Shown: positions 3,104-55,200 of the stretch, piece after piece
Numbering within the stretch: position 1 is the stretch's first letter
Layout: the number at the start of each line of letters is the position of its first letter
Source: Aedes albopictus
Lineage: Eukaryota > Arthropoda > Insecta > Diptera > Culicidae
Reading direction: 5' to 3'
Assembly (NCBI RefSeq): GCF_035046485.1
Contig: NC_085137.1
Span: 481,548,252-481,612,251, forward strand
Length of the DNA: 64,000 bases
The notes under the pieces: model-generated
The model's input: the letters and a program-made list of their open reading frames with translations, nothing else
Databases searched by the model: none
What the model was told of the DNA's origin: nothing
Program-made: the position numbers and the translations under genes

Positions 3104-3108
3104 GGTAT

Positions 3109-3588
3109 TGTCGTAACCGGATGGGACAGCGAATGTTCCATCTTCCGGTTGGTGTTCTTCTAACTCCTCAGCTGTGTCACGCTGATTGGCCGAAAGGACG
3201 TAAGCTCCCGCCAAACCGTCTTCTGACACATTTTCGAGATTGCGCTCCATAAGGCGTCCGTTGTCGTTCACTATCCTCGTTAAACTGACTGTACTGAAAC
3301 CGCCAACCTTGTTGGGTACCTGCTCAAGTGCTGAGCGAGAGAATCTCTCCTTTTTTCATGGTGAACACCCAACTCTTGTTTCTTGGCTGTTTGCCCTGCT
3401 TTCACTCTCTTTCTCTTCTGCCCTCCATTTTGCTGTTTCAAAATGTCTACACAATTAGCTGAACGTAAAAGTGCACGTTCTTGAACATTTCAAGCGTAAC
3501 ATTTAAAAAGACACAAGATATGAAGCGTAACCAATAATTTATTTTTCGATAACCAATTAGTTCTATACTGACAAGCCCATATTCCACA
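3109..3588 (-). repeat. 3' LTR of the retrotransposon
   Basis: Same 480-bp sequence as the 5' LTR at an exact offset of 8,116 bp; I saw no difference on reading. The polypurine tract abuts it at 3,589. Confidence 0.95.
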
Positions 3589-3610
3589 ATCACTGTCTCC
3601 TCTACTCTTT
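3589..3610 (-). other. Polypurine tract
   Basis: Immediately upstream of the 3' LTR the minus strand reads AAAGAGTAGAGGAGACAGTG. This is the usual plus-strand primer position and composition. Confidence 0.7.
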
Positions 3611-5568
3611 AAAACTATGTATATTACTGACAATGATATATTGAAAATGCCATGTTTCGAAAAACTTCTATGTTCAATTACCAAAATAAAAAGTAACAAA
3701 ACTACTCAAAAATGTTATGCTGACTATTCCTTCAAAATTTACCACAATTTCTTTAACGAGAACTTTTAAGATCCAACATTTTTGCTTAGCTCTCTGGACA
3801 ATGATGAAAACATTCGAGATGGAAACAGGCGGCGAAAAAAAAACTCCAGATGCATAATCAATTGGATTTCTAACTTTTGAAAAATGTATCGATTTTTTTT
3901 ACTACATTACATATTATTATATACAAAAGAGCACATATTTCTGAGCCACTATGTTTTTTTCCAGATTTTTTTTAAAACTTTATTTTAATACCGTAAATTA
4001 ATTCCAAAGAGATTTTTTTTTTAAATCATCTTTTCACAGCTGGGCAACTGCTTGACAGCTCCGCCCAGTACAAAATCCGACAAAGGGTGATTTATCAAAT
4101 CGCTCTTAACCAAATGATTTTGATATGGTTCCCGGGCACCAAAATTCATGAAAATCTGGATTTCGGTGCAGATTTAGAATATGAAATTATTTATTATGCC
4201 TCTCAAGGAAAATTAGAATATGGCAATTATCTGCCTCTGGCTTCCAATATAAGCGCGATAGTTACTAATCATAACAGCGTCATTAGATTCTAATAGTATA
4301 GAGTTGTCCAAAAAAGTCTCACGAAACCTACTGCAAGCCTATCCATATACGTGAGAACAATAGATGTTTACAAAGTTCTTACAGATAGATTAACACGGGA
4401 AATCTGAACACAAACCACTACCACATAGGAATTTGGATTGATCAATTTTATTCCCTTATGTGGGGTTTGACAGCAAGCACACTCATTTCACTGAGCCACT
4501 CTTGCCGTTCATCACAATTACATTTAAAAATATCTGTCACTTTGCGAAATCCACATGCTTTTTATTTTATTTATTTTTTTGTTTTGCCTTGAGATTGTCA
4601 CTGTGGCTGTATGCCTTGCGAGCGTACGGTCGCCACCGGACTCTATTATTTTCTTAATTAATTTTCTTAATAATAAAAGATAAGCGCGACAATATCTCTA
4701 CCCCGTTAAAGCCAAATCAAGACTCAATTTTGACTGCATGAGTTTTTCCGTGTGTGCATCACTCCCTCTTGAACATCACTCACCTTGAACATCATGGACC
4801 AAACGATGAATGAAGCAACACTCGCGTCTAAAACGTCAAAGTCAATTTCTTCCCGATCCCGAACCTTCAAAACAAAACAAAATCACCGCGGTGGAAAATT
4901 TTCTGCAGTAATCGCGATTTCTATTTGAAATATTCCCTATAAACTTGAGGACAATCTACCCGAAGATTAAGAACCGAGAATTGAGAGCTTCTCATGTTAC
5001 TGGATGGTCTGCTGCACGGATGAAACAAGGATTTCGAGCGATGTTTCGCCATGAATGTTGGGGTACGAAGAACGAAGGACTATGTTGCGGTCGTTGTGGT
5101 AGATGCGATGCTACCTTCCCGGCCAGGATATTTCGCTGAAGATCTGATACCTGAACGACAATGTGTAAAAGGATGCTCGGACATCGTGTTGGAATGAAAG
5201 AAGTCGCTCGATAATAGAGACAAGCAGAAATGGAAGAAACGAAGGGAGAAATGCTCCCACCATACAAAACAAGCCAACGTCCAACCGTGATGTGCCTATC
5301 ACCTATCGAACAATCAACAACACTCGTAAGTTCAGCATATTGTGTATTTAGCTTTTTTGGTCTACATTGAAAGTATTTTATGTATGTTCTGAAAGAATTT
5401 CGTACAGTAGTGTTCGCTTCTATTCATACACTTGATACAAAACCATGTCTTTGTATTTGGTGGGCTTCGTGATGTTTCGTTTAGGCCTCGCTCGTAACGA
5501 TTGGTCCCCCACCTGCTGTACGTTTTCATTTATCGTGTCATCCGCTTCACCTATAAGAATAGCTTCAG
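3611..5568 (-). other. Long 3' untranslated region of the retrotransposon
   Basis: About 2 kb between the pol stop and the polypurine tract. It holds only short open frames in all six frames and no transmembrane or fusion-like protein, so no env is called. It is AT-rich apart from a more balanced part at 4,940-5,330. Its size is unusual for a gypsy element. It may hold an old insertion or regulatory sequence. Confidence 0.5.
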
Positions 5569-8500
5569 TTAAGATGTTAAAATATAAGACTCATCACCTA
5601 TGTGACCTGTTAGAGTTTCGTCGGCATTGAAAACATCTGACTTCTGTTTGTCTGTCGGACCCGGGGTGGTCTCGTCGGGTGAGTCCTGAACAGCCCTCTT
5701 AGCATCTTCTACATTGCGCGAGTACACTACTCCTCGGTCGCTCCGAACGACCAGTTTCGCGCCGTCTCTAGCCAAAATCGTGTACTTCTCTATTCCGAAA
5801 GTTGGATCGGACTTAAGCCGCTTCTGCTGGGCAAGAACTACTCTGTCTCCTACGGCTAGATTCGACTCCTTGGCTCCTCGTTTTGAATCCGTATATCTCT
5901 TGCTCTCTTGTTTTGAAAATGCATCTTTTTCTCTTATTTCCTCACGATCTAGATCGTTGTCAGCACGAGCTTCCCATAGACAAGGAAACGTGCCACGATA
6001 CTTCCACCCGACTAGTAATTCAAATGGCGTGACTCCTAGCCTCGAAAGGGGTCGCACCTTGTTATGATAATGCACATATCTTTCAAGTGCGATTCGCCAG
6101 TTGCAGTTGTCCAATTTGGAAGCAGCCAGAGCTTTTTTTATACCCTGGTTTTGCCTTTCAATTGCCCCATTAGACTGAGGGCTCATTGGAATGGACTTTT
6201 GAATTGCAATACCTCTGTTTTTCCACGTTTTGACGAATAGATCGCTTTGGAAAGGTGGTCCGTTATCGCTTTGTATGATCAACGGATACCCCCATACCAG
6301 GAAGATTTTGTTCAAGGCATCGATCGTTGATTCGGCATTGATCGCTTTCATTTCCATTACATGTAAGTATCTGGAGTACACATCCACCACCACGAGAAAT
6401 TCTCCGAATCCAAATTCTTTATCCGTGTAGAAATCAATTTGGATAATTTCCCATGGCCCTCTAGGGAGTTCTCTATTTGTAAGCGGGATCGGTGGGTTTT
6501 TTCTGGAAAGCAAGAGACACGTTTCGCAGGCCTTAACGTATGCTTCAACGTCGCTACTCATGCCTGGCCACCAGAAGTATTCACGCATTATTCTTTTAGT
6601 TGATGATACTCCCATGTGGCCTTGGTGGGCTGAGCGTATGGCTGTATTCCGCAATGCTTGGGGAAGAATCACTTGATCGTTTTTGAATATCGTAAATCCA
6701 AGAGAACGAAGATTTCTGGATTGGGACTCGTACCGTCGAAGTCCACTTTCCCACTGACCGGTTTCAATGGCCGCCTTGACGCTGCAAAGCTCCTTATCCT
6801 GTTCTGAAGATGATGCGATTTCGTCCCATGTTAGTTCCATCGCACCCGTATCCAGGAAATACAGCAAGTGTTTATCATCTGTTTCGTCGTCAAAAGACTT
6901 ATCCGGAGGATTCTGCACCACCAGTCTTGAGAGAGCATCCGCAATGTTCATGTTTCCTGGAATTCTTCTTACGGTAAAACTGTACGGTTGCAACTTTAAT
7001 GCCCAGGCCTCAGCTCTGGTTACAGCGCGCCTGCCGATTCGGTGCAGGCCACCAAAAATAAATTCGTTAGCCTCAGCATCGGTCCTTATGGTGAAAGATA
7101 TGCTCATAAGGTACATTGAGAATTTCTCAACCCCCCAGACCATCGCCAACGCTTCTTTCTGCGTCTGGGGGTACTTTTGTTCCACGGGAGTTAACGTCTT
7201 CGATGCACAGGCTATTACTCGCGGTTGATGGTCTTTGTCGAATTGAACTAAAACTGCGCCTAAGCCAAAGGGGGACGCATCGACGTATAGTTCTGTTTCG
7301 TCAAATCTGCTATAGTATCCAAGTGAGGTAACGGTTTTCCACGCATCGTTTTTCAAAAATTCGAATTCTTTCTCCAAATCGTTGTCCCAATAGAAATGGT
7401 CACCCTTTGCCAGTTCTCGCAATCTCCATGTCCGTTGAGCCCGATGAGGAATGAATCTCTCAATGAAATTAATCAGACCCAAAAAACTTTTTACTTCTGC
7501 GATGGTTGCGGGGCTTCTGAAGTTCTTGAGTGCCGCAATCTTGTCATCTGCCAATTTCCACCCATCGGAGGATACAAGAAATCCTAAGAAATCCACAGAT
7601 TTTTGCCCGAATTTACACTTTTCTTCGTTGATCATCACGTTGTGGTTTTTCAAACATTCCATTACCTTAGCAAGGTTCCGGTCGTGTTCCTCCTTGGTTT
7701 TGCCGAAGATCATCATGTCATCTAAGTAGTTAACTACTCCTTCACACCCGGCGAGCACGACTGTCTGTAATACCTCCTGAAATATATCAGGGGCATTGCA
7801 GAGGCCAAATGGCAGCCTCTTGTACCTGTATATTCCATCGCCAGCAAAAAAATTGGTAAGATGGCGCGAATTTTCGTGTAGTTCTATATGAAAAAACGCG
7901 TTCTTCAGGTCAATGGTTGAAAACCATTCCGCGCCGTGGAGCTCCATTAGAATTGTCTCGAACGTTGGCATCTTGAAGGGGGTCCTATGAATACTTCGGT
8001 TAGGGCCCCTGAGGTCTATTACAAGGCGTATATCATCCCTGCCTTTGGGCACTACAAGTAAGGACGAGCAAAACGAGCGATCCATATCGGGGGTGACTTC
8101 CTCTATTATACCCGATATCAACAAATCGCTAAGCTTCTGCTTGGTTAGTTCCTTAAATGCTATAGGGATATTGGTATAGACATTTCGAGAGGGTGGCATA
8201 TCCGTGTTGTATTTCAGCGTGATTGGTGGCACATTGAATTTAGGAAACTCTGCAGGTCGAGATGCCGATTCAACTAGAGCAATGTTCGAATTGCCTCGGT
8301 TGAATGATAAGCGTTGGTATCGCACAGGCACGGTCAGTCCGATGTCAAGCACACTATATCTTACGGCTGTGTTGAAACCCAGCAGTGCTCTCAGTTCATC
8401 CACAACGTAAAACTTTTCAACCATTACGGGTCGGTCTTCAGAGACAAACAACTCTGCTGAAAACACAGCAACGACTTTAATAGGGTCGTTAGAGCCATAT

Positions 8501-8757
8501 CCTTTCAATGGTTGATCAGTATTGGAGCTTAAAGCCAGTATTTTGGATGACGCTAACTCATCAGCTACGATTTTGCTGAACGATAACTTCGTTACCGTGT
8601 TCACCTGGGCACCTGAGTCAATCATGAACTCGATGTCTATGCCAGCCACCTTGGCTTTAATGAGACAGCTTGAGTCTGAAATTACTGGAGGGTTGTTTGT
8701 GTGTACGTTGTCCACCTTGAGGCTATGTGGATCGATATTCAATGCCGGAATTAATTC
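5569..8757 (-). CDS. pol: Pol polyprotein: protease, reverse transcriptase, RNase H, integrase
   Basis: No ATG lies at the start of the frame; the apparent first codon at 8,742 is TTG, and the frame is open back to 8,790, so Pol must be made as an extension of Gag or from another RNA. Numbering from 8,742: aspartic protease DSGA (42-45); RT with FSTIDLKNAF (Asp 278) and the YLDD box (339-342); RNase H with YVDAS (Asp 488), Glu 530 and IADALSR; integrase zinc finger His 706/His 709/Cys 739/Cys 742; and a DD35E core Asp 770, Asp 826, Glu 862 with exactly 35 residues between the last two. The length, about 1,060 residues, and all catalytic residues are intact. No chromodomain is seen. Confidence 0.95.
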   Translation of the reverse strand, partial: ELIPALNIDPHSLKVDNVHTNNPPVISDSSCLIKAKVAGIDIEFMIDSGAQVNTVTKLSFSKIVADELASSKILALSSNTDQPLKGYGSNDPIKVVAVFSAELFVSEDRPVMVEKFYVVDELRALLGFNTAVRYSVLDIGLTVPVRYQRLSFNRGNSNIALVESASRPAEFPKFNVPPITLKYNTDMPPSRNVYTNIPIAFKELTKQKLSDLLISGIIEEVTPDMDRSFCSSLLVVPKGRDDIRLVIDLRGPNRSIHRTPFKMPTFETILMELHGAEWFSTIDLKNAFFHIELHENSRHLTNFFAGDGIYRYKRLPFGLCNAPDIFQEVLQTVVLAGCEGVVNYLDDMMIFGKTKEEHDRNLAKVMECLKNHNVMINEEKCKFGQKSVDFLGFLVSSDGWKLADDKIAALKNFRSPATIAEVKSFLGLINFIERFIPHRAQRTWRLRELAKGDHFYWDNDLEKEFEFLKNDAWKTVTSLGYYSRFDETELYVDASPFGLGAVLVQFDKDHQPRVIACASKTLTPVEQKYPQTQKEALAMVWGVEKFSMYLMSISFTIRTDAEANEFIFGGLHRIGRRAVTRAEAWALKLQPYSFTVRRIPGNMNIADALSRLVVQNPPDKSFDDETDDKHLLYFLDTGAMELTWDEIASSSEQDKELCSVKAAIETGQWESGLRRYESQSRNLRSLGFTIFKNDQVILPQALRNTAIRSAHQGHMGVSSTKRIMREYFWWPGMSSDVEAYVKACETCLLLSRKNPPIPLTNRELPRGPWEIIQIDFYTDKEFGFGEFLVVVDVYSRYLHVMEMKAINAESTIDALNKIFLVWGYPLIIQSDNGPPFQSDLFVKTWKNRGIAIQKSIPMSPQSNGAIERQNQGIKKALAASKLDNCNWRIALERYVHYHNKVRPLSRLGVTPFELLVGWKYRGTFPCLWEARADNDLDREEIREKDAFSKQESKRYTDSKRGAKESNLAVGDRVVLAQQKRLKSDPTFGIEKYTILARDGAKLVVRSDRGVVYSRNVEDAKRAVQDSPDETTPGPTDKQKSDVFNADETLTGHIGDESYILTS

Positions 8758-9574
8758 CTGAAAATAATAGTTTTCTTTATTTTCCAGATTCTACCTGGGT
8801 GAATAATCTTGTAACCACATGACTAAGAAGGATGATCTTAAACAGCTGACAAGTACCCACCGAAGAACGAAGATGGCACAAAAATAGCCTTCATATGAGC
8901 ACAGACAAATAGACGTTTCACTACGAATATATTGCACTAAAAATCATTCTGCAAAAACATAGTGTCAGAATCTGAATGCTACTCACACTATGTTTCGAAA
9001 AGCACTCTGTATGTTGCAATGGAAAGTAAGAAACGCAGTACAATGTCACGAGTAACTGATTGACGAACTACGGAATATTCGAATCCAGCTTTGACACACT
9101 GACCTATAGATAACAACAAACAACTATTTGTCCGTAATACAAGTAATATACCGTAAATCCTCGAGGCTGCACGATATCATTGGAAAGTTTTGTTTGTTTT
9201 TTTTTTTTGATTTCACTACGAATTAATTATTTTTATATTTTTTTTTTTTACTTCTCAGTTAAACAAAGTTAATATTCAATAATATGTACAAAAAAATGTC
9301 AGATTATTTTTAATATCTCGTATAAGATAAAGGGTTCGATATTTTTAATGAAAATATGTAGCTTAAATCTTTCACTTTTGCTATCATTTTATTAGTCATG
9401 TGGTTTCAAGGTAATACATAGTCGTTATTCTCAGGTGCAGTTTTAGAATCAATTTCAGCATCAATAAAAACATAAAAAAAAACAACTGACTATTGGAATT
9501 CAGTTTAGTCAGTCATCGTCAAAATTAACTCTGAGAATACGAGTCTACTCTGGATCTTCTTCGGCTTTTCGTAC
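8758..9574 (-). other. Gag-pol spacer, candidate intron 2 (817 nt)
   Basis: AT-rich, with long T/A runs, and no reading frame continues gag or leads into pol. On the minus strand it ends CTATTATTTTCAG at 8,758. Joining codon GAG (9,577-9,575) to GAA (8,757-8,755) keeps phase 0 on both sides and enters the pol frame. The pol frame itself is closed upstream by TAG at 8,793-8,791. Donor GTACGA is moderate. It could instead be a degenerate insertion. Confidence 0.5.
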
Positions 9575-10807
9575 CTCGTTAGCAACCTCATCATCCATCC
9601 TTGGGTTTTCGATGGCCGCAATTTTCCTCGGTACGCTCCGATCTTCCGAATCAGCCGGTCGTTTCCATGGTCGGTTCCAAAATTCCGACATTCGCTCTGA
9701 CGTACACATTCGAGCGATGTGACCCGTTCGACCACACGTGTGGCATGCTTTGCTGGCGTTTGGACACGTGGATGATTGATGAAAAATACTACCGCACCTC
9801 CAACAGCCGCTGCCGTGCTGGCTGCTACCGCGCTCGTTTCGTGACATTCCTTGGTTGAAACCTCTTCCTCCACGTCTCGAGCCGCGACTACCTCGTGCCG
9901 CTCCCCTAACACGCCAATTACCACGCCAATTTGATCGAAAAAGTCCTTGCGCTTGAAGCTCTTGAGGATTTTGGGCAATCATTGCGACAGTTGCCGGACC
10001 ACCGCGACTGCGGGTCCTTTGGAATTCCTCCTCAATTACCTGTTCCTGCTCATGTTCTCGTACTTGATCAATTAGACCCTTCATGCTGCCCTGTTTCACC
10101 CAGTTTCTACGTGCCAAGATGCGGATGCGGCTGTCACTTGCACCCGTGGTAACTACTCTCACAACCGCTTCCATTTCTTCATCATTTCCGTAGTTGCACA
10201 ATTTGGCGGCCGAGGCAACGCGACGAACAAATTCGACACTGGATTCTGACGGCAGTTGGCACAAATTCATCAATTTTCCTCTTTGTGACAGGATATAGTT
10301 TCGCGATCCGAAATAGTCATCAAGCCGGGCCAAAGCGTTTGAGAAAGGAGCTGTGTGTTCGTCGGGCATCGCTGTGGTGGAATCGGTTGTACTGAAGATT
10401 TCACGCAATTTGGCACCTGCTTTGATTTTGAACACACCGAACTTCGCTTTCTCGTCTGCTGAATTGACCAGCTGCAGAGAAGCGACAAGCGTTTCTTTCC
10501 AGAACTCATACGCCCGTTTATCGATCTCCGATTCTCCTTCCGCTGGTGTGCACTCTGGTATGTTCAAAGTTCCCAGGGTCCAGTTGCTCATCGTTGAAAT
10601 GAGCATCGCTTCGCTTCTCGAATCGGGGATTTCTTCCGGCGTTGTGCTTGATCGAACATGCCGAAGAGTGTCAGCCAAACTCTGCTCGGCGGAGAGTCGT
10701 GTTACCTGCTCCCCTAGATAATTATTCTTTTCAACAGCTTCCTTTAATTCTTTAAGCAGCTTTTTCTTCGAAATTTTCCTGGAAGGAAAAAAACAACGCT
10801 TTTTCAT
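9545..10807 (-). CDS. gag: Gag polyprotein
   Basis: The open frame is 420 codons from ATG 10,807; on the splicing model the true exon starts at 10,778. The N-terminal part is a lysine-rich helix with coiled-coil potential. The central 200 residues look like a gypsy-type capsid (FSNALARLDDYFGSRNYI, then LCQLPSESSVEFVRRV). Near residues 335-368 are two CCHC zinc knuckles, CWRCGSIFHQSSTC and CHTCGRTGHIARMC, which bind RNA. Two knuckles occur in Mag-like gypsy elements, but I do not fix the lineage. A candidate donor GAG|GTACGA lies at 9,575/9,574, ten codons before the stop. Confidence 0.92.
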   Translation of the reverse strand: MKKRCFFPSRKISKKKLLKELKEAVEKNNYLGEQVTRLSAEQSLADTLRHVRSSTTPEEIPDSRSEAMLISTMSNWTLGTLNIPECTPAEGESEIDKRAYEFWKETLVASLQLVNSADEKAKFGVFKIKAGAKLREIFSTTDSTTAMPDEHTAPFSNALARLDDYFGSRNYILSQRGKLMNLCQLPSESSVEFVRRVASAAKLCNYGNDEEMEAVVRVVTTGASDSRIRILARRNWVKQGSMKGLIDQVREHEQEQVIEEEFQRTRSRGGPATVAMIAQNPQELQAQGLFRSNWRGNWRVRGAARGSRGSRRGGRGFNQGMSRNERGSSQHGSGCWRCGSIFHQSSTCPNASKACHTCGRTGHIARMCTSERMSEFWNRPWKRPADSEDRSVPRKIAAIENPRMDDEVANEVRKAEEDPE

Positions 10808-11187
10808 TTTTTCTTGCTTTTTTCACAAATTTAAACATTTTCATTCTTTCGTTCCACTCTCTTTTATTAAAATGCAAAATTTATTTCCCGTATGTTCTAA
10901 TTATTGTTTCAACTTTTTTTTTTTAAGCATACTCTGTTCAAAACTTTATTTTTTTTTTTCAGCTCGTCTTTCCTATCGATTTAGTTAGGTCATTTTTCGG
11001 ACAGAGCTCCGTCTATTTCCACCGGAGTCTGATTTTTCTTTCGATCTCCGTCTATTTCCACCGGAGTCGATTTATTTTTACAGACTTCCGTCTATTTCCA
11101 CCGGAGTCTTTTCTACGAGCTCCGTCCATCTCCACCGGAGTCGTTTCAAGTATAGTTTCTTTAGTTACACTTTTCACCTATACTTAC
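10779..11187 (-). other. Candidate intron 1 in the retrotransposon leader (409 nt)
   Basis: Donor GTAAGT at 11,187-11,182 is the full consensus. The acceptor ends at 10,779 after the tract TTTTTTTCCTTCCAG. The acceptor lies inside the annotated gag ORF, so the first ten codons after ATG 10,807 would be intronic; they translate a pyrimidine tract, typical of accidental coding. All four leader stem-loops lie in this interval. Confidence 0.55.
11007..11142 (-). repeat. Four leader stem-loop repeats
   Basis: The plus-strand unit CTCCGTCTATTTCCACCGGA recurs at 11,007, 11,046, 11,086 and 11,120 with variable spacers. In the element's RNA each unit can fold as CTCCG-loop-CGGAG, with an 11-nt loop rich in GGAAATAGA. 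The loop is conserved in three copies; the copy at 11,120 has two changes, and the one at 11,086 differs at its first stem base. Position between primer-binding site and gag is where dimerisation and packaging signals normally lie. Confidence 0.8.
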
Positions 11188-11366
11188 TTTTTCGACGAAC
11201 CGGCGGAACTACCGGCTGCGCCACTGTCGTAACCGGATGGGACAGCGAATGTTCCATCTTCCGGTTGGTGTTCTTCTAACTCCTCAGCTGTGTCACGCTG
11301 ATTGGCCGAAAGGACGTAAGCTCCCGCCAAACCGTCTTCTGACACATTTTCGAGATTGCGCTCCAT
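11188..11366 (-). CDS. Candidate first coding exon of Gag, starting inside the LTR
   Basis: From ATG 11,366 an open frame of 60 codons crosses the end of the LTR and the primer-binding site. It stops only at TAA 11,186-11,184, and that stop overlaps a consensus splice donor: GTAAGT at 11,187-11,182. The peptide is acidic (ERNLENVSEDG, TAEELEEHQPEDG) and ends in a Gly/Ser/Ala stretch followed by lysines. If spliced to the acceptor at 10,779, the last two bases (AA) plus the first base of the next exon (G) make a Lys codon in the gag frame. No domain is recognised. The alternative is a short uORF. Confidence 0.55.
11208..11224 (-). other. Primer-binding site, tRNA-Ser type
   Basis: One base after the LTR the minus strand reads TGGCGCAGCCGG. 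This matches the complement of a tRNA-Ser 3' end (TGGCGCAGTCG) with one difference, the primer class used by several insect gypsy-type elements. The site is also translated as part of the leader ORF that ends at 11,184. Confidence 0.7.
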
Positions 11367-11704
11367 AAGGCGTCCGTTGTCGTTCACTATCCTCGTTAAA
11401 CTGACTGTACTGAAACCGCCAACCTTGTTGGGTACCTGCTCAAGTGCTGAGCGAGAGAATCTCTCCTTTTTTCATGGTGAACACCCAACTCTTGTTTCTT
11501 GGCTGTTTGCCCTGCTTTCACTCTCTTTCTCTTCTGCCCTCCATTTTGCTGTTTCAAAATGTCTACACAATTAGCTGAACGTAAAAGTGCACGTTCTTGA
11601 ACATTTCAAGCGTAACATTTAAAAAGACACAAGATATGAAGCGTAACCAATAATTTATTTTTCGATAACCAATTAGTTCTATACTGACAAGCCCATATTC
11701 CACA
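11225..11704 (-). repeat. 5' LTR of the retrotransposon
   Basis: Read on the minus strand it starts TGTGGAATATGGG and ends GGTTACGACA, the usual TG...CA termini. U3 spans 11,704-11,403 if the initiator at 11,402 is the start site. The first AUG downstream (11,366) lies inside the LTR itself. Confidence 0.95.
11369..11404 (-). promoter_or_regulatory. Predicted Inr + DPE core promoter of the LTR
   Basis: On the minus strand the word TCAGTT matches the arthropod initiator TCAKTY exactly, with the A at 11,402. At +28 to +33 lies GGACGC, five of six matches to the downstream promoter element RGWYVT at its strict spacing. This is a TATA-less arrangement known from insect retroelements. It would put the first AUG at +37, giving a 36-nt 5' UTR with no upstream AUG. 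Confidence 0.55.
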
Positions 11705-11849
11705 GGTATCACCTTCTAAATATTGTACACCGTGCACCAAACTCACACATTGCACAATGGGCCAGATCACGAATTTAGGAGGAAAACATTATTTTACCAT
11801 GAAGATGATGTTTTAGAGGTTAAGTGTCTTCGGCAATATTGTTACTATT

Positions 11850-13415
11850 TAAATGGGCTATAATTATATACGTCTTAAAATAAGGGTGGTCCAGTAAAAT
11901 ATCAAAATGTTTTTTTAACTTTTTCAGTTTTCAAGTTACCTTAAGGCAATGTTTGGAAAGTTGTTCTTCTATTTATTTAGAGTAACTTTGCCGAAGACAC
12001 CAACTTTGTAGGATATTTGTGTATTGCACTAGAGCGATTTTCAATAACACTAGTTTACAGCATTTTTGAACTCGGTAAGCTGATGATCGTTTTTGGTGTA
12101 GAATCATGCCTCCTCCTCTCTCTCTCTCCTCTTCTTGGCGTAACGTCATCACTGGGACAAAGCCTGCTTCTCAGCTTAGTGTTCTATGAGCACTTCCACA
12201 GTTATTAACTGAGAGCTTCCTCTGCCAATGACCATTTTTGCATGTGTATATCGTGTGGCAGGCACGAAGATACTCTATGCCCAAGGAAGTCAAGGAAATT
12301 TCCTTTACGAAAAGATCCTGGACCGACCGGGAATCGAACCCGTCACCCTCAGCATGGTCATGCTGAATACCCGTGCGTTTACCGCCTCGGCTATATGGGC
12401 CCTAGAATCATGCCCTGAGTTCGAAAACGCGAAGGAAAAAAATTACAGTAGAGCGGAATTTTTTTCGACTTTCCATACAAGGTTGATGATTTGAAATCGA
12501 TTTTTGTTCTATTTTTAAGCAAAGTCACTCACTTCACACATCTCATTCTCCGTAATCAATGCTCCGATTGAGCTGAATTTTTTACTGTAACTCGCCTACA
12601 TAAGATATGTCAAATAAACGTTGAGAAAGATTTTTTAAATTGTTTTTTTCTTATTGAAAAAAATACATTTCTTCATATATTTTTAGAAAATTTGCTAAAA
12701 TTTAAGGAGATCGTCCCCAAAACTCGCCAATATCTTGAATTTCATCAGCCTGACGCAAAACCTGCATTCAGATGATCGAATTGTATTTTATTCAGCTTTT
12801 AATTTATGGAAAAATATTTAAATTTGGTTGAACAAAACGCAAGATTTTTGAATTTTATTAAATTCCATATCTTAAAAAGCTGTAAAACTCGATATTGAGC
12901 TAAAACTCAAAAACTGTTCTACTTTAAATTTTTTGATGCACGGTTTCGAAATCAGCGCTAAATTATGCTTCAAAAATTTTGGTCTTTGACGGAAGTTCAC
13001 GACTTTCGTTTTATTTTGTAAACTAGTGTAATTATGGTTGAGTGGACCCAAAAATTCGGTTTTTCCGAATAACTTTTTTGTATTAAATTCTACGTACTTT
13101 CTGTCTTCTACAAAGTTCAAAATTTGATCAATACGGTTATTTTCAAACAAAACTTTTGAAAATCCATCAATTCGTTGATGAGATATGTTAATTTTTCTAA
13201 AAAGACGAACTTTTTCAATGTCATTTACTTTCAATGGGGGAAAATCGGGGATATAATTCTTGCAGGATTTGAAAGATGTACTAATGAGGATCACACTGTG
13301 CAATGATGTTTTGATGATCATGGTGGATTCCTTTTGCAATATTGCATTGAATAATGTGATTTTTGAATAGAAATTCACAATTTTATTTGGAATATTGCTG
13401 TTCATTGTGAGAAAT
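11850..13415. repeat. Interspersed repeat R1, copy A (hosts a SINE)
   Basis: The segment around 12,050-13,030 is repeated at 46,130-46,835. Its two ends (11,860-12,060 and 13,090-13,400) are repeated in inverse orientation at 18,930-19,515. The minus-strand frame at 12,872-13,405 (177 codons) lies wholly in this repeat and has no recognisable domain. Probably an old non-autonomous element of about 1.3 kb before the SINE landed. Confidence 0.6.
12111..12402 (-). mobile_element. tRNA-derived SINE (family B) with an empty-site match
   Basis: The head is at 12,402 (B box near 12,330) and the GA-rich tail at 12,111. Target duplication TAGAATCATGCC occurs at 12,099-12,110 and 12,403-12,414. The homologous repeat at 46,185-46,200 has the same site without the SINE, which confirms both ends. 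Confidence 0.88.
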
Positions 13416-35640: not shown

Positions 35641-37115
35641 TCATATCATTTCATATATTTAGTATTACATGAAATTCAAGATAAAACTCAATCAACAATA
35701 TTTCTCCATAATACACGGTTCGTGGCTGCCGTTCTTCATCCTCAGTCACGTCCAACACTCGCCAGATCACGCTCCACCTGGTCCGCCCATCGTGCTCTCG
35801 GCGCTCCACGCCTTCTTGTGCCAACCGGATCAGTTGCAAACACCAGCTTTGCAGGGTTGTTGTCCGGCATTCTTGCAACATGCCCTGCCCACCGTATCCT
35901 TCCGGCTTTGGCCACCTTCTGGATGCTGGGTTCGACGTAAAGTTCAGCTAGCTTATGGTTCATCCTTCTCCGCCACACACCGTTCTCCTGCACACCGCCG
36001 AAGATCGTCCTTAGCACGCGTCGCTCGAAAACTCCGAGTGCTTGCAGGTCCTCCTCGAGCATGGTCCATGTCTCGTGCCCGTAGAGGACCACCGGTCTTA
36101 CATATTAGCGTTTTGTACAAGGTGCATTTGGTGCGTGGGTGAATCTTTTTAGACTACAGCTTCTTCTGGAGCCCGTAGTAGGCCCAACTTCCGCTGATGA
36201 TGTGCCTTCGAATTTCATGACTCACGTTGTTGTCAGCCGTCAGTAAGGATCCGAGGTAGACGAATACCTCCACCACCTCGTAGGTATCCCCGTCTGTCGT
36301 AACATTACTACCCAGACGGATCCGGTCGTGTTCGGTCCCGCCTACCAGTATGTACTTTGTGTATGTACCAGTCCGACCTTTGCTGCTTCGCGTTTCAGGC
36401 GGGTGTACAGCTCTGCCACCGTTCCAAATGTTCTGGCGATAATGTCCATGTCGTCCGCAAAGCACACAAATTGACCGGATTTTGTGAAAACCGTACCCCG
36501 GCTGTTGAGCCCGGTTCGTCGCATCACACATTCCAGAGTGATATTGAAGAGTTGGCATGAGAATCCGTCACCTTGTCGCAGTCCCCGAGATAAGAATTAA
36601 CAGGATAGTTAACCCGAAACCCTTACGCAGTTTTGCACACCGTCCATCGTTGCTTTAATCAGTCTAGTCAGCTTCCCAGGAAAGCCGTTTTCGTCCATGA
36701 TTTTCCATAGCTCTGTGCGGTCGATACTGTCGTATGCTGCTTTGAAGTCGATGAACAGATGATGCGTTGGGACCAGGTATTCACGGCATTTCTGGAGGAT
36801 TTGCCGTACGGTGAAGATTTGGTCCGTTGTCGACCGGACGTCGATGAAGCCAGCTTGATAACTTCCCACGAACTCATTTGTTTTGGGTGACAGACGACGG
36901 AAGATGATCTGGGATAGCACTTTGTAGGCAGCATTCAAAATAGTGATCGCTCTGAAGTTCTCACATTCCAAATGGTCGCCTTTCTTGTGAATGGGGCAGA
37001 TTACCCCTTCCTTCCACTCCTCCGGTAGCTGTTCGGTTTCCCAGATCCTGACTATCAGCCGGTGATTTCGTAAACTTATCATTTTTGAATACGTACATGT
37101 ATGTGTAGCAGACAA
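35641..37115 (-). pseudogene. 5'-truncated LINE with reverse transcriptase, frameshifted
   Basis: Minus-strand frames in order: 37,115-36,609 (168 codons) with VICPIHKKGDHLECENFRAI, FRPG-like GFIDVRSTTDQIFTVRQIL and the catalytic box HLFIDFKAAYDSI; 36,527-36,342 with the second catalytic box FADDMDII; and 36,092-35,742 with VLYGHETWTM, FERRVLRTIFG and GHVARMP of the C-terminal domain. At least two frameshifts separate them. The 3' end near 35,645 has a GATATGAAATGA-type tail. It lies just upstream of the tetraspanin ATG exon, in its likely 5' intron. Confidence 0.85.
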
Positions 37116-37264
37116 AAATATTCTTTATGTATTCCATAGAAAATCAAGAATATTCCATAACGAAAACTCCTGGTTCCTCAGGCGATCCAATCAAATTGTT
37201 TTTCATTTATTAACGACTCCACTCTATCTAACGTTCTTTTCCATTTCTTCTGCTCCACAGCACC

Positions 37265-46200: not shown

Positions 46201-49200
46201 GAGTTCGAAAACGCGAAGGAAAAAAATTACAGTAGAGCGGAAAATTTTTCGACTTTCCATACAAGGTTAATGATTTGAAATCGATTTTTGTTCTATTTTT
46301 AAGCAAAGTCGCTCACTTCACACATCTCATTCTCCGTAACCAATTTTTCGATTGAGCTGAATTTTTTACTGTAACTCGCCTACATTTGATATGTCAAATA
46401 AACGTTGAGAAATAATTTTTAGATTGTTTTTTTTCTTAATGAAAAAAATACATTTCTTCATATATTTTTGGAAAATTTGCTAAAATTTTAGGAGATCATC
46501 CCTAAAACTCGCCAATATCTTGAATTTCATCAATCTGACGCAAAACCTGCGTTCAGATGATCGAATGATATTATATTCAGCTTTTAATTTATGGAAAAAT
46601 ATTTAAAATTGGTTGATCAAAACGCAAGATATTTGAATTTTTTTAAATTCCATATTTTTAAAAGTTATAAAACTCAATATTGAGCTAAAACTCAAAAACT
46701 GTTCTACTTTAAATTTTTTGAAGCACGGTTCCGAAATCAGCGCTAAATTATGCTTCAGAAATTTAGGTCGTTGACAGAAGTTCACGACTTTCGTTTTATT
46801 TTGTAAACTAGTGTTATTTTTATAAAAATGATTTCCCTTAGACTGGCCAAAACCAGTGCCCGCACCCTAGGTGTAAAACATGTTCAAAATTCACAAAAGT
46901 CTTGTGGTGTCCATACTGCCCCATGGGTGAGAATAGTTTTCACTGATCCTTGACATGCAATGTATAACTACCCATCATAGTCTGTTGAAGTTTTGATCCC
47001 AGGGCTATTCTAAGGCTTCCAAAATACTCCGAAATTTTTGTCACAAATCCAACATCCTATACCAAATTTTATACACGATGAATCATCACAGAACATAGCC
47101 TACGGTATCCAGAAAGCCTCAAAGCACTCCTAGAAAATTCATGGTACATGAATTGGGTGATCTAGGTCATCCAAACTACTCTGGAATTCATTTTCTTAAG
47201 ATCTACAACATCTACATACCGTCATTTGTGTTCACTCTGTTCAAGAAATTTAGTCACGTTGATGTCCACTAGACCTCACAAAGCTACGAGCAACTCGATA
47301 TTGTGGTAGCTGGACATTCCTTGAATTACGAATGGCCTCCAATACACTTTGAATTTTGGGTTACGATATCTACATACTGTATCATGCTTAAATTGTTAAA
47401 TATATTCGTGGAATGTAGTCTATACTGCTGATGGAGCCTCAGTGCACAACTATAATGCTTCTGGTACATTCGTGCGATATTCCTGGCATCCCAAACTATT
47501 TTGAAATTAGGACCTCCAAGATATACAGGCTCTACTCTTGTTTCTGTTCACTCTATCGGCATAATTCTTTCACGATTGTGTCTGTTGCACCTCATAATAT
47601 GTATTATGAGTATCTCTATGTGTTGCTATTAGGGTATCCGCTGGCATACAAATGGACCCAATGTATTTTGAAGTATGGGTCGCAATATCTATAAATCTTA
47701 GGATATTTATTTTATCATAGTGAATGCTCGCGGAATATAATCTACGCTACTCTTAGAGCCTCGGAATGCAATTCTGATAACTAAGCAACATTCACTTGGT
47801 GATCTAGTTCACCCAAACTATTCGGGAATTGAGACCTTCAAACTCCAGAGGCTTTACTCTAGAATCTCTTTACCTTATCGGCGTAGTTCCTCCTAAAAAT
47901 CCTTCAGAAATTCCTGCAAGAAGTTCACCAAGAATTCCTCAAAGAATCTTTCCAGGTATCCCACTAAGAATTTCTGCCAATAACTCCTGGAAGAATTCCT
48001 CCAGGAATTTTTCCGGAAATTCCTCGAACATTTTTCCTGGAGTTCCGTAAAGAATTCAACCAGAAACTCCTACAAGAATCCTTCCAGGAATTTCTCCAAG
48101 AATTCCTTCGAGAATTCCACCAGGAATTTCTTCAAGAATTTTTCCAGATATTACTCTAAAAAATCTGCCAAGAATTCCTCAAAGAATCCCTCTAGGTATT
48201 CCTCCAAGAATTTCTCTAGGAATTCCTCATAGAATTCTGCCAAGAAGTTCTCCAAGCATTCTTCCAGGAATTCCTCCGATAGTTTCTCCAGGAATTCCTC
48301 CAAGAACTTCCCTATGATTTTTTTTCCAAGGATCTCTCCAGGAATTTCTCCAGAAATTTTCCTCCAGAATATGCTCCAGGATATATTCCAGAAATTCGTC
48401 TAGCAAGTATTCCTGCAATTCCTTCAGGGATTTCTCCAGGATTTACTCTACGATTTTTTTCTGGAATTTCTACAGGAATTTCTCTAGGAATTGTTCCGGA
48501 AAATACTCTAGGAATTCCTACAAGAGATATTTCAGGAATTCCTCCGGGAAATACTTCAAAAATTCCTCCAAAAATTCCTCCAGGAATTGCTCTATCAATT
48601 TCACCAGGAATTCCTCCACAAATTCCTCCAAGAATTATTTCAAGAAGTACTCCAGGAATTCCTACAAGGAATTTTCCAGAAGTTACTCCAGAAAATAAAA
48701 ATTAAAAAAATTACTTTGAAAACTCCTCCAGCTCAAGGAAGTCCTTCAGGAATTCCTCAAGGAAATCCTTCAGGAATTCCTCTAAGAATTTCCCCCGGAT
48801 ATGCTTTTGAATTTATTTCACAAATTTTTACGTGAACTCTACCAGAAAGTATTCCAGGAATTCCATCAGCATTTTCTCCAGAAATTTCATCAAGAAACTC
48901 TTGGGGAAATTCCTGGGGGAGTTCTTGCAGGAAATCTTGGAGGAATTCCTGAAAGAATTTACCGAGAAATTCCTGGAGAAATTCCTATAGAGATTCTTGG
49001 TGGAATTCTTGAAAGAAGTCTTGAAGGTATTCCTGAAGTAATTCATGGAAGGGAATTCTGGAAGGATTTCTGGATTGTTGGAGTAACTCTTGTCGGATGT
49101 CTTGAAGGAATTCCTGGAGGAATTCGTGAAGGAATTCCTGGAGGAATTTGTGAAGGAATTTCTGGAAGAATTTCTGAAGGATTTCCTGAAAGAATTCCTG

Positions 49201-52200
49201 ATGGTATTTTTTTTTAAATCCTTTTATGTATTCCAAGAGTAATTTATAAAAGAATCCCTGATGAAATTGCTGAAGGGGTTCTTAGAGGAATTTTTGACAG
49301 AAGCATTGAAGCATATCTTGGAGGCAAACACTCTTGAGGAATTCTTGGACTTGCTGGTGGAATTCCAAAAACTATTTACATATTTAGGAATTCCTGGAGC
49401 AATTCCTGAAAGAGTACCTGGAGGAATTTCGGAAGCAATTTTTGGCGCAATTCCTTAACAATTTTCGGAGGAAACTCTGAGGAAAGCCCTGAAGGAATTC
49501 ACGGACGAATTCTTAGAGTAATCCCAGGAGTACTTTCTTGATGAATTACTAAAGGTTTACAGAAGGACCCTGGGGTATTTATAAAAGAATTTCTGGAGGA
49601 ATTCTTGAAAAAAAATCTTAAAAAAATCCTGGAGAAATTTCTAGAAAAATTCTTCTTGGAGGATTTCCTGAAGTAATTTCTGTTGGAATTCCAAATGAAA
49701 AATTTCTTCACAATTTCCTGGGGGAATTTCTGGAGCAGTGCCTGAAAATAATCTTGAAAGAATCCCTGGGGTAATTTTTTGATGAATTTCTGGACGATTT
49801 CCTGCAGGTTTCTGGAGAAAGATTTTGAGGAATTCGTTGAGAGCTTCATGTGAAAATTCTTGGAGGGATTCCTGGAGAAACTCTCGGAGGAATCTTGTAC
49901 CGACTTTTCGAACCCTCTAAGCAGAATACCCTCTTCGAATGAGTGTAATCAGTTTCGTACCTTTTAATTCTGCCCTATGTTGCTTATCCTTTGACAGATA
50001 CGCGTATTTCGACTACCACTTGTAATATCTCCCTCAGTGTCAGTTATTATATAGTGGATAACTGACACTGAGGAAGATTACAAGTGGTAGTCGAAATACG
50101 CGTATCTGTCGAAGGATAAGCAACATAGGGCAGAATTAAAAGGTACGAAACTGATTACACTCATTCGAAACTCGGAGGTATGCTTGGAAAATTTCTTGGC
50201 AAATGTCTACGAGGAATTCCTGGAGAAACTCTCGTAGGAATTCCTGGAGGAATGCTTGGAGAACTTCATGGCAGAAGTATATGAGGAATTCCTGGAGAAA
50301 TTCTTGGAGGAATACTCAGAGGGATTCTTTGAGGATTTTTTGGCAGAATATATAGAGTAATATCTGGAGAAATTCTTGAAGAAACTCCTGGAAGGAATTA
50401 TTGGAGAAATTCCTGGAAGGATTCTTGTAGGGGTTTCTGGTTGAATTCTTGGAGGAACTCCTGGAAGAACTTTCGAGGAATTTCTGGAAAAAAATTCTTC
50501 AGGATTATTGGCAGAAATTCTTAGAGGAATACCTGGAAAGATTCTTTGAGGAAATTATGGAAAGTCTTGGAGAAATTTCTGAAGGATTTTTTTTGAGGAA
50601 CTACGCCAATAAAGTGAAGAGATTCAAACTTGTGGAGCTTGAAGGTCTCATTTCCAGAAGAGTTTGGCTAAGTTCATACAAAGAAATAAAAAAGTCATGC
50701 ATGATATTTATCAAAAATATTTTCCCTCTTCCAAAATCTTTGTTCATAAAATGATTAATTGTTTTTTTTTTTGATAAATTCTGTCTCAACAAGTTCGAAT
50801 AATCGATGTAAGTGTTATTGCAGTTTTCAACGCATTTGATTTTTTTTGTAATTTTATAATTGATTATACGGCAAACAAGATTTTTTTTCAGATTGGCATT
50901 CAGCTACCAAAAAACCTAGACAAACACTACATTAAATTAGATTACCAACCACGTAACAAACCTTATTTAGTAAACTTTGCACGAACGATTTGTGTAAGTG
51001 AGTGGCAATTTCAAATTGTAGATAAAAAACGAAAATTGTTCTAACTTGACTCAATTAATAAATGATCTGAAGACGGCCGAATGAAGTAGGCCGAAACGTT
51101 ATGCCAAATCGATTTGGTAAGAATTATGTCAAAGAAAAAACTCTACAATGCTGAAACATGGTATTTCGAAAGTTTTAGACAATTTCGCAGGGTCTCAGGA
51201 ACGATACATGGGGTCCGTTGGGGTTTTAGGGAGGTTTCGGAGGCATTTCAGGAAGATTCAGATGATTTTTAGAGACCCCTTTACAAAAACCTTTGAAAGG
51301 GCCCGGAAATGCCTTGAAACCATGAAAACCTCCATAATCCCATTGAAATGCCTTCAAAATCCCCATGAATCCTCCGTTATTCCATTGAAACGTCATCATG
51401 ATCAATTTGAAATGCCATTGAAACGATGGAATCTCCGTAATACCATTAAGGCCAACGAAACCTTCACTTCGTAAGTGGATGGTCATGGGTTCGATCCCAG
51501 CTCCGGCACTTGCAATTTTTCGTCACTTGTTCTTCCCCCCGAGAGCGGCTGGCACCTGACCCTCTTCAGAGCATATGCTCCAACCTGGATATCGGCTAAC
51601 GGAAATTCATAATGGACCCCCAATCGGACTGGAAAAGGAATAAGAGCCACACATCAACATACTCGTGCTCATCATTCTATCATGGACAGGGTAGAAAAGT
51701 GACAGCAGCGGAAAGGCAACCAGTTCGATATAGTAGAATAAGAATAGAATACATTAAGGCGCTGTAGAGTAAGAGTTAGAGTAAGTGCCAATTGGAATCG
51801 CTCACGCAGTGCACTAGTGGACAAAAAAGCTTTAAACTAGTGATTGAAGAATATAAATAAAAATGTCCCTGAAGCCCCTTGGAACCCTCTATTTTGGGCT
51901 CTCAAGGCACTTCCTGAAGGCCTCTTGGTCCCCATTTCAAATGCCCATGATCAAGAACCGAATGGCATAAAAAAAGGTTCCAGTGAAATTGAAAAATCTT
52001 ACTTTCCCATAATTTTCACCTCCCAATTTTCATGCTACTAATGTTTGGCCCATAGGCCTGATTTTTGTTTCGTAGACAATCTCCTTGTAACATATGATCA
52101 ATAAAATGTGCTATCAACACAAAGTTAGGTTTCATGTATCTAGATAATGATACCTACTATTTTTCAGATCAGATCATTTATCTACAGATCAAGGAAGCAC

Positions 52201-55200
52201 AGCAAGAGCAAAGACAAGATTTCATTTTAAACAGACCGTAAAGAAGGAAATAAACCATAGGCGGAAGGTCGAAACCATGTGCCAAAAACTTGGTTTAGCA
52301 GATCAGTCAAGCGTTGCCGATCGTAAATGGCTTTGAAGGAAATTCGTGTGCTTTAATTTTGCGCATGTTGACGCGAAACCAGCTAAAAAATTTCTATGCA
52401 CATTTTGCACATGCTGGCTGTAAAAAATCATATAAATAATTTATGTTTTTGCCTTTCTCGTGCACCAAGGTGTACCGAAAGGCTATATGTTCACTCCAAA
52501 AACGAAAATTGGATAGAGCCCCCGGAGAGGTCAAGTCTTATATACCAATCGACTCAGCTCGACGAGTTGAGATGATGTCTGTGTGTATGTATGTGTGTGT
52601 GTATGTATGTGTGTGTGTGTATGTGTACAAAAAGGTCACCTCATTTTTAGATAGTAAATATGATCCGATTTCAACGACCGATGGTTCATTCGACGCGGCC
52701 TATTGTCCCATTGTTTCCTATTGAAAATGGTTCAGATCGGTCCAGCCGTTCCGGAGTTATGGCCATTTAGGTGTTCCGGACCGGTACCCCAGGAAGGGGC
52801 CAGATATAAAAATGCAACAAACCAATGCATGCGACCCATCAAACCACGGCATTTTCGATTATCTGATGAACGGTCAACAGGAAAATAGTCTCACTGAACC
52901 GGTAGCATTCCGGAACCGGTTCCGGGTGTCCCGCCGAAAGTGGCCAAATATAAAAGTGAACCAAACCCATGCATGCGACATATCAAATCGCCGCTTTTCC
53001 TATGACCTGATGAACGGTAAACAGGAAAATAGCCTCACTGAACCGGTAGCATTCCGGAACCGGTTCCGGGTGTCCCACCGGAAGTGGCCAAATATAAAAG
53101 TGAACCAAACCCATGCATGCGACACATCAAATCACCGCTTTTCCTATGATCTGATGAACGATCAACAGGAAAATAGTCTCACTGAACCGGTAGCATTCCG
53201 GAACCGGTTCCGGGTGTCCCGCCGGAAGTTGTCAAATATAAAAGTAAACCAAACTCATGCATGCGACACATCAAATCGCCGCTTTTCCTATGACCTGGTG
53301 AACGGTAAACAGGAAAATAGCCTCACTGAACCGGTAGCATTCCGGAACCGGTTCCGGGTGTCCACCGGAAGTGGCCAAATATGAAAGTGAAGCAAACTCA
53401 TGCATACATACCTAATTGTGCGGTTAGCAAGAAACTAGACTAAGCCCACATTAGAAACTAATTGTACATCTGTCTCGCGGAGAGTGGCCGAATGTAAAAA
53501 AGAACCAAACCAATATTCGCGACACATCAAATGGCTTCTTAGGTATTCTGATGAACGAATAACAAGAAAAAACATCTCAGATCATAATTGGGAAAACAAA
53601 TAGTGTCCCGGGATCGGTTCCGGGTGTTCCTCCGGAAGTGGTCAAGTGTGGAAGGAAACCGAACCCCATGCATGCGACACATCAAATCGCGGCTTTTTCG
53701 ATAACCTGATGAACGGTTTTCAAAAGAAAGCCTTAGATTACGTTAGAGACCACCGGTAGTGTTCCATAACCGGTTCCGTGTGTCCCGCAGGAATTGGTCA
53801 AATGTAAAAATGAACCGGTTTAGAGTGTTCCGCCGAAAGTGGACCAACATAAAAATGAACCAAACCCATGCTTGCGGTACATCAAATCGCTTTTTTGTCA
53901 GTAACCTGATGCATGGATAATAACCAAATAGGCGCAGTCCACAGAAGTTACTACCGGTAGCTTGACCGGTAGTATTACTAGTTCTGGGTAATCTGTATCT
54001 GATAACAGTTAGTATTTACATAAGCTCAGACCACGCTACCGGTAGTGTTCCAGAATCATTTCCGAGTGTCCCATCGTAAGTGGTCTAGTATAAAGTATAC
54101 CAAACTCATGCATGGCACACATCAAATCGTGACATTTCGATAACCTGATGAACGGTTAGCAAGAAAATAGGCTCAGACTACATAAGAGGCTAGCGGTGGT
54201 GTTGCAGAAGCAGCGTTGAGTGCTTCAATGGAATTTCGAAAGTGAACAAAATCAATGCAAGCGATAGATATGTGTAAGAGAACCAAAAACCTAAAAAATA
54301 CTAGAGCGATCTCATCAAACCACACCATTTTAGATTCCTGAGATGTTAACATACAGTAGGATGGGTCAACGTTGTATGGAATTAAAATTTTAGCGCATCA
54401 GCCCCGAACATTTTTTTAAAATCCCCTTTTACGTCTAAAATTACTGCGCAAAATTTTGCTGCGACTGGAGGGCGAGCTCTGTAATGCGTTTAAAATATGA
54501 ATAAGATTTAATATTGGCAATTCAAATTACAACATTACAAATTTTACATGAATCTCGTAACCAATGATAATAAAATATAGCCTAAAGTGTGCAGAAAAAG
54601 AGCTTTGTCGAAGACCTCAAAGTGACCTGTGAAAAAAGTTATATCCTAGCTTGTCAAGCAGTCAACTGAGAGAACTGATATTTTCAGCTCTGTCTATACG
54701 TTGAACATAACATCGGAATAAGTGCCCCAGTTCGATGATGATTTTGATAAAATTTTCGTTTTTCTAAATAATGTATTCTCAGGATTCAGAAATTCGTAGG
54801 TGGTACAGTCCCAGACCGCTGATATGAGAATTTCCTCCTTCTCATCCGTTATCAAGGCACAGAGCTTTGAGGCTGATCACTGACTCTAAGGCAAGATTGA
54901 TTGCGTCGATGGAATGATCATGAGTACATATTCAACGAGAAAGGAACTATCACCACTAGGTGGATTAATCTGGTTTTTTATCTGTATTAACGAGATTTTT
55001 AGCCGTAGACTAGTTTATCTCGGGACCCACGCTTTACTTCCTTTCCGAAGGAAGAACCCACATTTTGTGAGTTTGTCGGGAGTGGGATTCGATCCCAGGT
55101 TCTCGGCGTGATAGTCAAGTGTTCTAACCATCACACCAGGTCCGCTCCATAATAACTTATGTTCTTGAAGTATCGAAAGAGCATTATTCTTGAAGACTGA

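Follow-up and report, generated by a model that had tools for sequence, protein, structure and literature searches.

A retroelement that is copied from spliced RNA should lose its introns. In Ogre elements, plant Ty3/gypsy retrotransposons of the Tat lineage, an intron between the gag side and the pol side is spliced out in a subset of transcripts, allowing synthesis of the full polyprotein (PMC6317226; this and the other articles cited here are drawn on in excerpt). In mosquitoes, Mag-lineage elements of Culex with 5′ repeats have been surveyed by counting open reading frames (ORFs); their primer binding sites (PBSs) are mostly of the Ser or Leu type (Ser in cqgypsy_24 and cqgypsy_66, Arg in cqgypsy_25), and in the excerpted text we found no account of their splicing, the string "splic" occurring only in a host gene name (PMC3286476). 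Here we describe a complete Ty3/gypsy-type long terminal repeat (LTR) retrotransposon of Aedes albopictus, on the minus strand at 3109-11704 of a 64,000-nt stretch of contig NC_085137.1 (positions 481,548,252 to 481,612,251 of assembly GCF_035046485.1), hereafter the window. It resembles the Culex elements cqgypsy_24, cqgypsy_25, and cqgypsy_66 in its 5-nt target duplication, two ORFs, and tandem repeats in the 5′ untranslated region, although agreement with the Mag lineage is confined to PBS type, target duplication length, and 5′ repeats (PMC3286476). The comparative analysis presented below indicates that this structurally complete, recent element very probably uses the host spliceosome as an expression switch.

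The element is bounded by two 480-nt LTRs (5′ LTR, 11225-11704; 3′ LTR, 3109-3588; all coordinates are those of the window, and all features of the element lie on its minus strand), which start with TGTGG, end with TACGACA, and are identical at 480/480 positions, indicating a recent insertion. The target site duplication ATACC flanks it at 11705-11709 and 3104-3108, and the PBS, TGGCGCAGCCGGTAG, adjoins the 5′ LTR at 11209-11223; we take it to be of the tRNA-Ser type. In addition to these hallmarks of LTR retrotransposons, assignment to Ty3/gypsy (Metaviridae) follows from the order reverse transcriptase, RNase H, and integrase in Pol (PF00078, PF17917, PF17919, PF17921, and PF00665 in Pfam) and from Ty3 being the nearest solved relative, the best match of a structure search being Ty3 Gag-Pol (7q5b, E = 2.2e-81). 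A domesticated host gene was considered and is ruled out by the identical LTRs and the perfect target duplication. An earlier sequence-only reading had drawn the element too narrowly, at 5569-11404, whereas the splice signals that it named (ATG at 11366, donors at 11187 and 9574, acceptors at 10779 and 8758), its Gag of about 470 residues with an LTR-encoded N terminus, and its 817-nt spacer whose removal restores a pol frame without ATG are all supported by the comparisons that follow.

Coding exon 1 (11188-11366; 179 nt, ending in phase 2) begins at an ATG inside the LTR, and its frame stays open past the LTR end and through the PBS. It is followed by intron 1 (10779-11187; 409 nt), with donor AAA/GTAAGT (a slash marks the junction) and acceptor TTTCCTTCCAG ending at 10779, and by exon 2 (9575-10778), which contains most of gag, including one zinc knuckle at or above the Pfam cut-off (PF00098). 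Joined in phase, the two exons encode a Gag of exactly 470 codons. In the whole element, acceptor 1 ranks first of 585 AGs and donor 1 second of 485 GTs, according to matrices of approximate splice-site frequencies, which also underlie the other ranks and best-scoring sites given here; the comparative evidence for splicing is far stronger than these ranks.

A search of the genome with gag gave 11 matches (4 at 99-100% identity, 3 at 85-88%, 2 at 68%, and 2 short ones), and the 5′ pieces of ten copies besides that of the window were compared. All four splice sites of introns 1 and 2, with their frames, are kept in 6/6 of the copies L011-L016, so that the donor GAAAAA/GTAAGTAT and the T-rich acceptor YAG/GAAA of intron 1, as well as both sites of intron 2, are found in 7/7 copies when the window is counted. 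In the three diverged copies (85-88% in gag), both introns differ by many insertions and deletions, and exon 1 measures 191, 179, and 179 nt; its length is 179 or 191 nt, in phase 2, throughout L011-L016, and the nucleotide alignment of the window with L014 has a single 12-nt gap there. In the two copies at 68% identity (L017 and L018), the corresponding sites are acceptor 1 TTGTTACAG, donor 2 AAG/GTAAAC, and acceptor 2 ATTTTCAG; L019, which has no readable splice architecture, was left out for splice sites. The ratio of nonsynonymous to synonymous rates (dN/dS) in the frame of exon 1 is 0.31 for window-L014, 0.39 for window-L016, and 0.32 for L014-L016, compared with 0.74-1.57 in the two shifted frames; counts are small (12-17 synonymous and 14-25 other differences), and L015, 97% identical to L016 in this exon, was left out. 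The dS of exon 1 between the window and L014 (0.36) equals that of exon 2 (0.35). We therefore conclude from the low in-frame dN/dS that the LTR stretch is selected as protein.

Gene models point the same way. Among 18 annotated mosquito gag genes (NCBI/nr models), drawn from 58 gag relatives (another profile search yielded 59 proteins, including 5 not seen before), 12 begin with the D-x-G-A N terminus that the LTR end and PBS would encode; a thirteenth match, in P0044, lies inside gag and was not counted. In P0001, P0002, P0009, P0013, P0024, P0025, and P0033, an N terminus of the LTR type is joined straight to the start of exon 2. P0010 matches the donor and acceptor of L020 save for one residue past the junction, and L020 is therefore a copy of its family. 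A similar N terminus without a gap occurs in P0041 and P0180, two unannotated contig ORFs, which therefore represent spliced RNA or intron-free forms.

Intron 2, between gag and pol (8758-9574; 817 nt), has donor GAG/GTACGA and acceptor ATTATTTTCAG ending at 8758, both in phase 0 and ranking fifth among the GTs and ninth among the AGs of the element, respectively. Its length varies (764, 1392, and 789 nt in the diverged copies and 139 nt in L017). Exon 3 (5607-8757), with the protease motif DSGA, reverse transcriptase, RNase H, and integrase, lies downstream; the pol frame opens just 11 codons ahead of acceptor 2. If intron 2 is retained, Gag is read through the donor into the C-terminal tail VRKAEEDPE and a stop (9545-9574). 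A [KEQ]V signature stands 5-12 residues ahead of the gag stop in 43/48 tails (11/59 rows without an anchored tail were dropped), compared with a mean of 14.3 and a maximum of 27 in 2000 shuffles; K, E, and Q are the residues with NAG codons and V is GTN, together spanning donor 2. As tail and stop past donor 2 are kept, both the retained and the spliced forms seem to be used. Gag and pol are fused in 8 of the 120 pol relatives listed, all of them NCBI models. The frames of gag and pol agree in some cases and differ in others, and 61-763 nt separate the two when gag is intact; this variability of frame and distance therefore excludes fixed recoding or frameshifting. Where pyrimidine-rich codons form a run in the unspliced pol ORFs, the next residue is Q in 14/73 places versus 3.8% overall, the mark of a CAG acceptor. 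Intron 2 of the window also contains imperfect 30-nt inverted arms (8800-8829 and 9389-9418, 83% complementary); the best inverted-arm score is 16, versus 9-13 in 25 mononucleotide shuffles.

The architecture extends well beyond these copies. A gag-protein survey of the same genome scored 99 places, 30 of which are given as rows representing 29 places (L042 and L048 being the same) and, by our own count, about 14 sequence groups with identities as low as about 43%. Near the gag start, the best-scoring AG is in gag phase in 30/30 rows; a phase-2 donor follows the PBS in 18/21 rows with a PBS, and in the 21 rows for which PBS and acceptor 1 could both be located, the selected donor and acceptor are separated by 168 nt or more. 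In addition, the best-scoring AG at the pol start is in pol phase in 28/28 rows with a pol match, and a phase-0 AG/GT precedes the gag stop in 20/30 rows.

A third intron is probably needed to complete Pol. The pol ORF stops at 5569, which is probably not the end of the protein: a conserved Pol C terminus, RPKRNITKPTKYKDMVLYQVYE, followed by a stop, lies downstream in another frame (exon 4; 5420-5550), and removal of a 56-nt intron 3 (5551-5606; donor CAG/GTCACA, acceptor TTCTTATAG, branch-like CTTAAC) joins the two in phase. The sequence-only proposal that Gag-Pol depends on introns 1 and 2 is supported, yet double splicing would not suffice, and the reading had missed this small third splice. 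A tail resembling RPxR..KP..(F/Y)KDM.LY..YE closes the Pol of many relatives, and that of the window is matched by 26 of the 120 relatives listed at E ≤ 1 (best E = 1.9e-10). The tail is identical at 43/43 residues in L021-L023 and at 77% in L024, all four of which keep the donor (GTTAAA in L024) and acceptor; L032 keeps the donor and lacks the tail, and no pol end was obtained for L025, L026, and L029-L031. An alternative donor at 5597 was rejected in favor of that at 5606, as it sits past an in-frame TAA in L024. The conserved tail is absent from 13 of the 15 closest pol ORFs. Without the truncated P0066, 12 of these remain, among them P0059 (100% identical to the window); they stop shortly past a Gly codon, whose place was judged by eye, and K or E comes next in 7/12, a pattern that G/GTAAG or G/GTGAG would give. 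In L033/L027, this region holds a 55-nt and a 97-nt intron, whose donors are GTAAGG and GTAAGA, separated by an exon of 111 nt, all in phase, and L034/L028 show the same sites.

Within intron 1, at 11003-11144, folding and covariation analyses point to four tandem hairpins with a loop of mostly GUGGARAURGA. The region folds better than 200/200 shuffles (z = -3.95). Across 28 hairpins (20 distinct) from seven sources, a set from which the near copies L011 and L017 were excluded, 95.6% of cells are paired and three pairs are changed on both sides; the covariation score, 0.232 versus 0.110, is reached by 0/500 shuffles, and slid versions attain at most 0.086, although the structure was drawn from the tested sequences, and shuffles of this kind can be outscored simply because sequences are related. 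In L018, the 11-nt loop is preserved but sits on another stem; no such array was found in L020 or L019. As the array is confined to intron 1, spliced RNA is without it. The hairpins may be regarded as a candidate packaging or export signal, the weakest step of our model.

Several observations weigh against the proposed architecture. Exon 1 of L011 is interrupted by a stop, and gag is broken by a 1-nt shift in L013 and by a stop in L015, lesions as expected for decaying copies. Exon 1 of L015 and L016, although of the window length, aligns through four small cancelling gaps, none a multiple of three. Among the gag models, 6/18 are without an LTR-encoded N terminus. In the survey, 10 rows lack a phase-0 donor ahead of the gag stop; donor 2 is nevertheless present in four of them (L037, L039, L042, and L048; three places), in which the scan had halted at an earlier stop or shift, and L058, L060, and L064 have stops inside gag, whereas L061-L063 have open gag frames and no donor 2. 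Donor 1 is not in phase 2 in L057, L059, and L060, the PBS is unplaced in 9 rows, many survey rows are nearly identical to one another, and the matrices used to score splice sites are approximate. The codon signature of acceptor 2 occurs in only 14/49 unannotated pol ORFs. When the leader is folded to its lowest energy, four separate hairpins do not result, and hairpins taken one at a time have only weak folds (z = -0.9 to -1.9). P0062, P0071, and more distant relatives run into the Pol tail without a stop, and intron 3 is therefore not universal; it is also the least certain of the three, because its donor in the window is weak (rank 104 of 485; acceptor rank 24). More generally, all junctions are deduced from DNA and gene models, which may in part be products of computation and not of transcript data.

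How Gag might be made without splicing can be considered in this light. If translation started at ATG 10806 on unspliced RNA, intron 1 would be a mere leader and the LTR frame a chance ORF; the window does have AAAAATGAAA there in frame with gag, and other in-frame ATGs precede acceptor 1 in L013 and L015, so that a shorter Gag could still come from unspliced RNA in these three copies. As a general account, this is very unlikely: 7/9 other loci and 24/30 survey rows have no in-frame ATG before acceptor 1 (the other 6 rows have one), unspliced RNA has seven AUGs upstream besides that of the LTR, or eight in all before the gag start region, and exon 1 is constrained at the protein level. A counterpart for Pol, in which reinitiation or internal entry dispenses with splicing and an inserted element forms the 817-nt spacer, is highly improbable. 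The 30-nt inverted arms could be a decayed insertion, but spacers from 139 to 1392 nt retain donor and acceptor, the pol frame has no ATG from its upstream stop to acceptor 2 in 9/9 loci and none ahead of the pol acceptor in 26/28 survey rows (exceptions L041 and L043), and Gag-Pol fusion gene models exist.

A foamy-style Pol made separately, by splicing donor 1 straight to acceptor 2, would use sites that are both present; by phase arithmetic, however, this direct junction is out of phase and meets a stop within three codons, and the 8 annotated relatives are Gag-Pol fusions, making Pol from a Gag-free spliced RNA extremely improbable. Intron 3 invites more doubt, and it is unlikely, though not to the same degree, that it stays unspliced, with Pol ending at 5569 and the tail a relic. 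The weak donor of the window and the end of the integrase domains before the tail would fit a relic; the preservation of the tail in L021-L023 and L024, the two well-formed in-phase introns at the tail in a related family, and distant families that read directly into it argue against one.

We thus favor expression through three introns, as follows. Transcription would start in the LTR, at a predicted site at 11402 with a TCAGTT initiator and GGACG at +28 to +32, presumably insect core-promoter motifs; no AUG lies between it and 11366. The RNA would open with a short first exon whose AUG, in the LTR, is in frame across the LTR end and the PBS. Removal of intron 1 would yield the 470-residue Gag, ending 9 codons past donor 2, and additional removal of introns 2 and 3 a 1554-residue Gag-Pol fusion, the Gag:Gag-Pol ratio being set by the frequency of intron 2 splicing and not by frameshifting. 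Given its eight AUGs, unspliced RNA is poorly suited to the synthesis of Gag or Pol; it most plausibly serves as the genome copy, which the hairpins in intron 1 would mark for packaging or export. A broader proposal, which we advance tentatively and with the balance tipping slightly against it, is a radiation of mosquito Ty3/gypsy elements with a complete split between genome and messenger: full-length RNA would serve only as genome, all proteins would come from RNA spliced of 2-4 introns, intron retention would set Gag:Gag-Pol, and the intron 1 hairpins would secure export and packaging of unspliced RNA only. If true, such a split would explain how an element copied through RNA keeps several introns; in these elements three or four persist, with exact sites and phases, despite large sequence distances. 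The elements would provide a clean natural system for the separation of genome RNA from mRNA, for the export and packaging of unspliced RNA in insects, and for the replacement of frameshifting by splicing. Some mosquito gene models that combine gag-like exons carry the name K02A2.6-like or uncharacterized; these are likely to be spliced retrotransposons, not host genes.

Past Pol, a 3′ noncoding region with a polypurine-like end (3589-5419) shares with L024, which holds part of it, only a 102-nt match at 75% identity. The longest element-strand ORF there encodes 143 aa (4995-5423, directly past the Pol tail); with respect to an env gene, neither this ORF nor a 63-aa one has a Pfam match. An open 81-nt stretch at 4784-4864 (minus strand) lies between a strong acceptor (exon start at 4864) and the donor AAG/GTGAGT at 4783, the top-scoring donor of the whole element, and may be an additional exon of the element or one captured from the host. 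No relative was confirmed among viral contigs, which were scanned with Pol and with alignments of Pol and of Gag, and two bacterial genome-contig loci with 26-29% identity over integrase were set aside as irrelevant. Elsewhere in the window, repeats at 944-1217 and 12129-12403 (96% identical, in opposite orientation, tRNA-related by look) flank the element, and two tRNA-Ala genes (2171-2242 and 2503-2576) lie in opposite orientation within long inverted repeats. The remainder includes a reverse transcriptase fragment at 36609-37124 (minus strand; Pfam RVT_1, E = 2.8e-14), arrays of 12-nt units around GGAATTCC at 47900-50581 with ORFs of more than 120 aa on both strands, and a tandem array of 4.3 copies of a 144-nt unit at 52792-53405, largely open as a 219-aa ORF.

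Individual features of the element have counterparts elsewhere. Ty1 of yeast likewise has its Gag start codon in the LTR and its PBS inside the ORF; unlike the mosquito element, it relies on +1 frameshifting and has no intron. In the excerpted open-access literature (including PMC5248466 and PMC12992720), we found no mention of mosquito Ty3/gypsy elements with introns, or of three or four introns with Gag itself dependent on splicing. In BARE1 and copia, splicing tunes Gag versus Pol, and BARE RNA pools are separated (PMC3735527); there, Gag alone comes from the spliced RNA and the polyprotein from the unspliced form, whereas the mosquito element would need splicing for both. Cer1, a Ty3/gypsy element of C. 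elegans, also retains splice signals and must have its unspliced genome RNA exported, but its spliced RNA encodes CERV, and unspliced retroelement RNA is described there as the Gag and Pol mRNA (PMC10309623). Foamy viruses share the requirement of splicing for Pol expression (PMC7828637) and differ in making Pol separately from Gag, in contrast to the Gag-Pol fusion predicted here. For intron 2, the closest functional parallel, judging from the excerpted account, is Ogre, in which an intron likewise separates the ORFs on the gag and pol sides, a feature that conservation supports in the mosquito element. Ogre belongs to a plant lineage, its intron follows the protease whereas mosquito intron 2 precedes it, and the excerpts mention no LTR-encoded start, coding intron in the leader, or 3′ pol intron (PMC6317226), all of which appear to be combined in the mosquito element.

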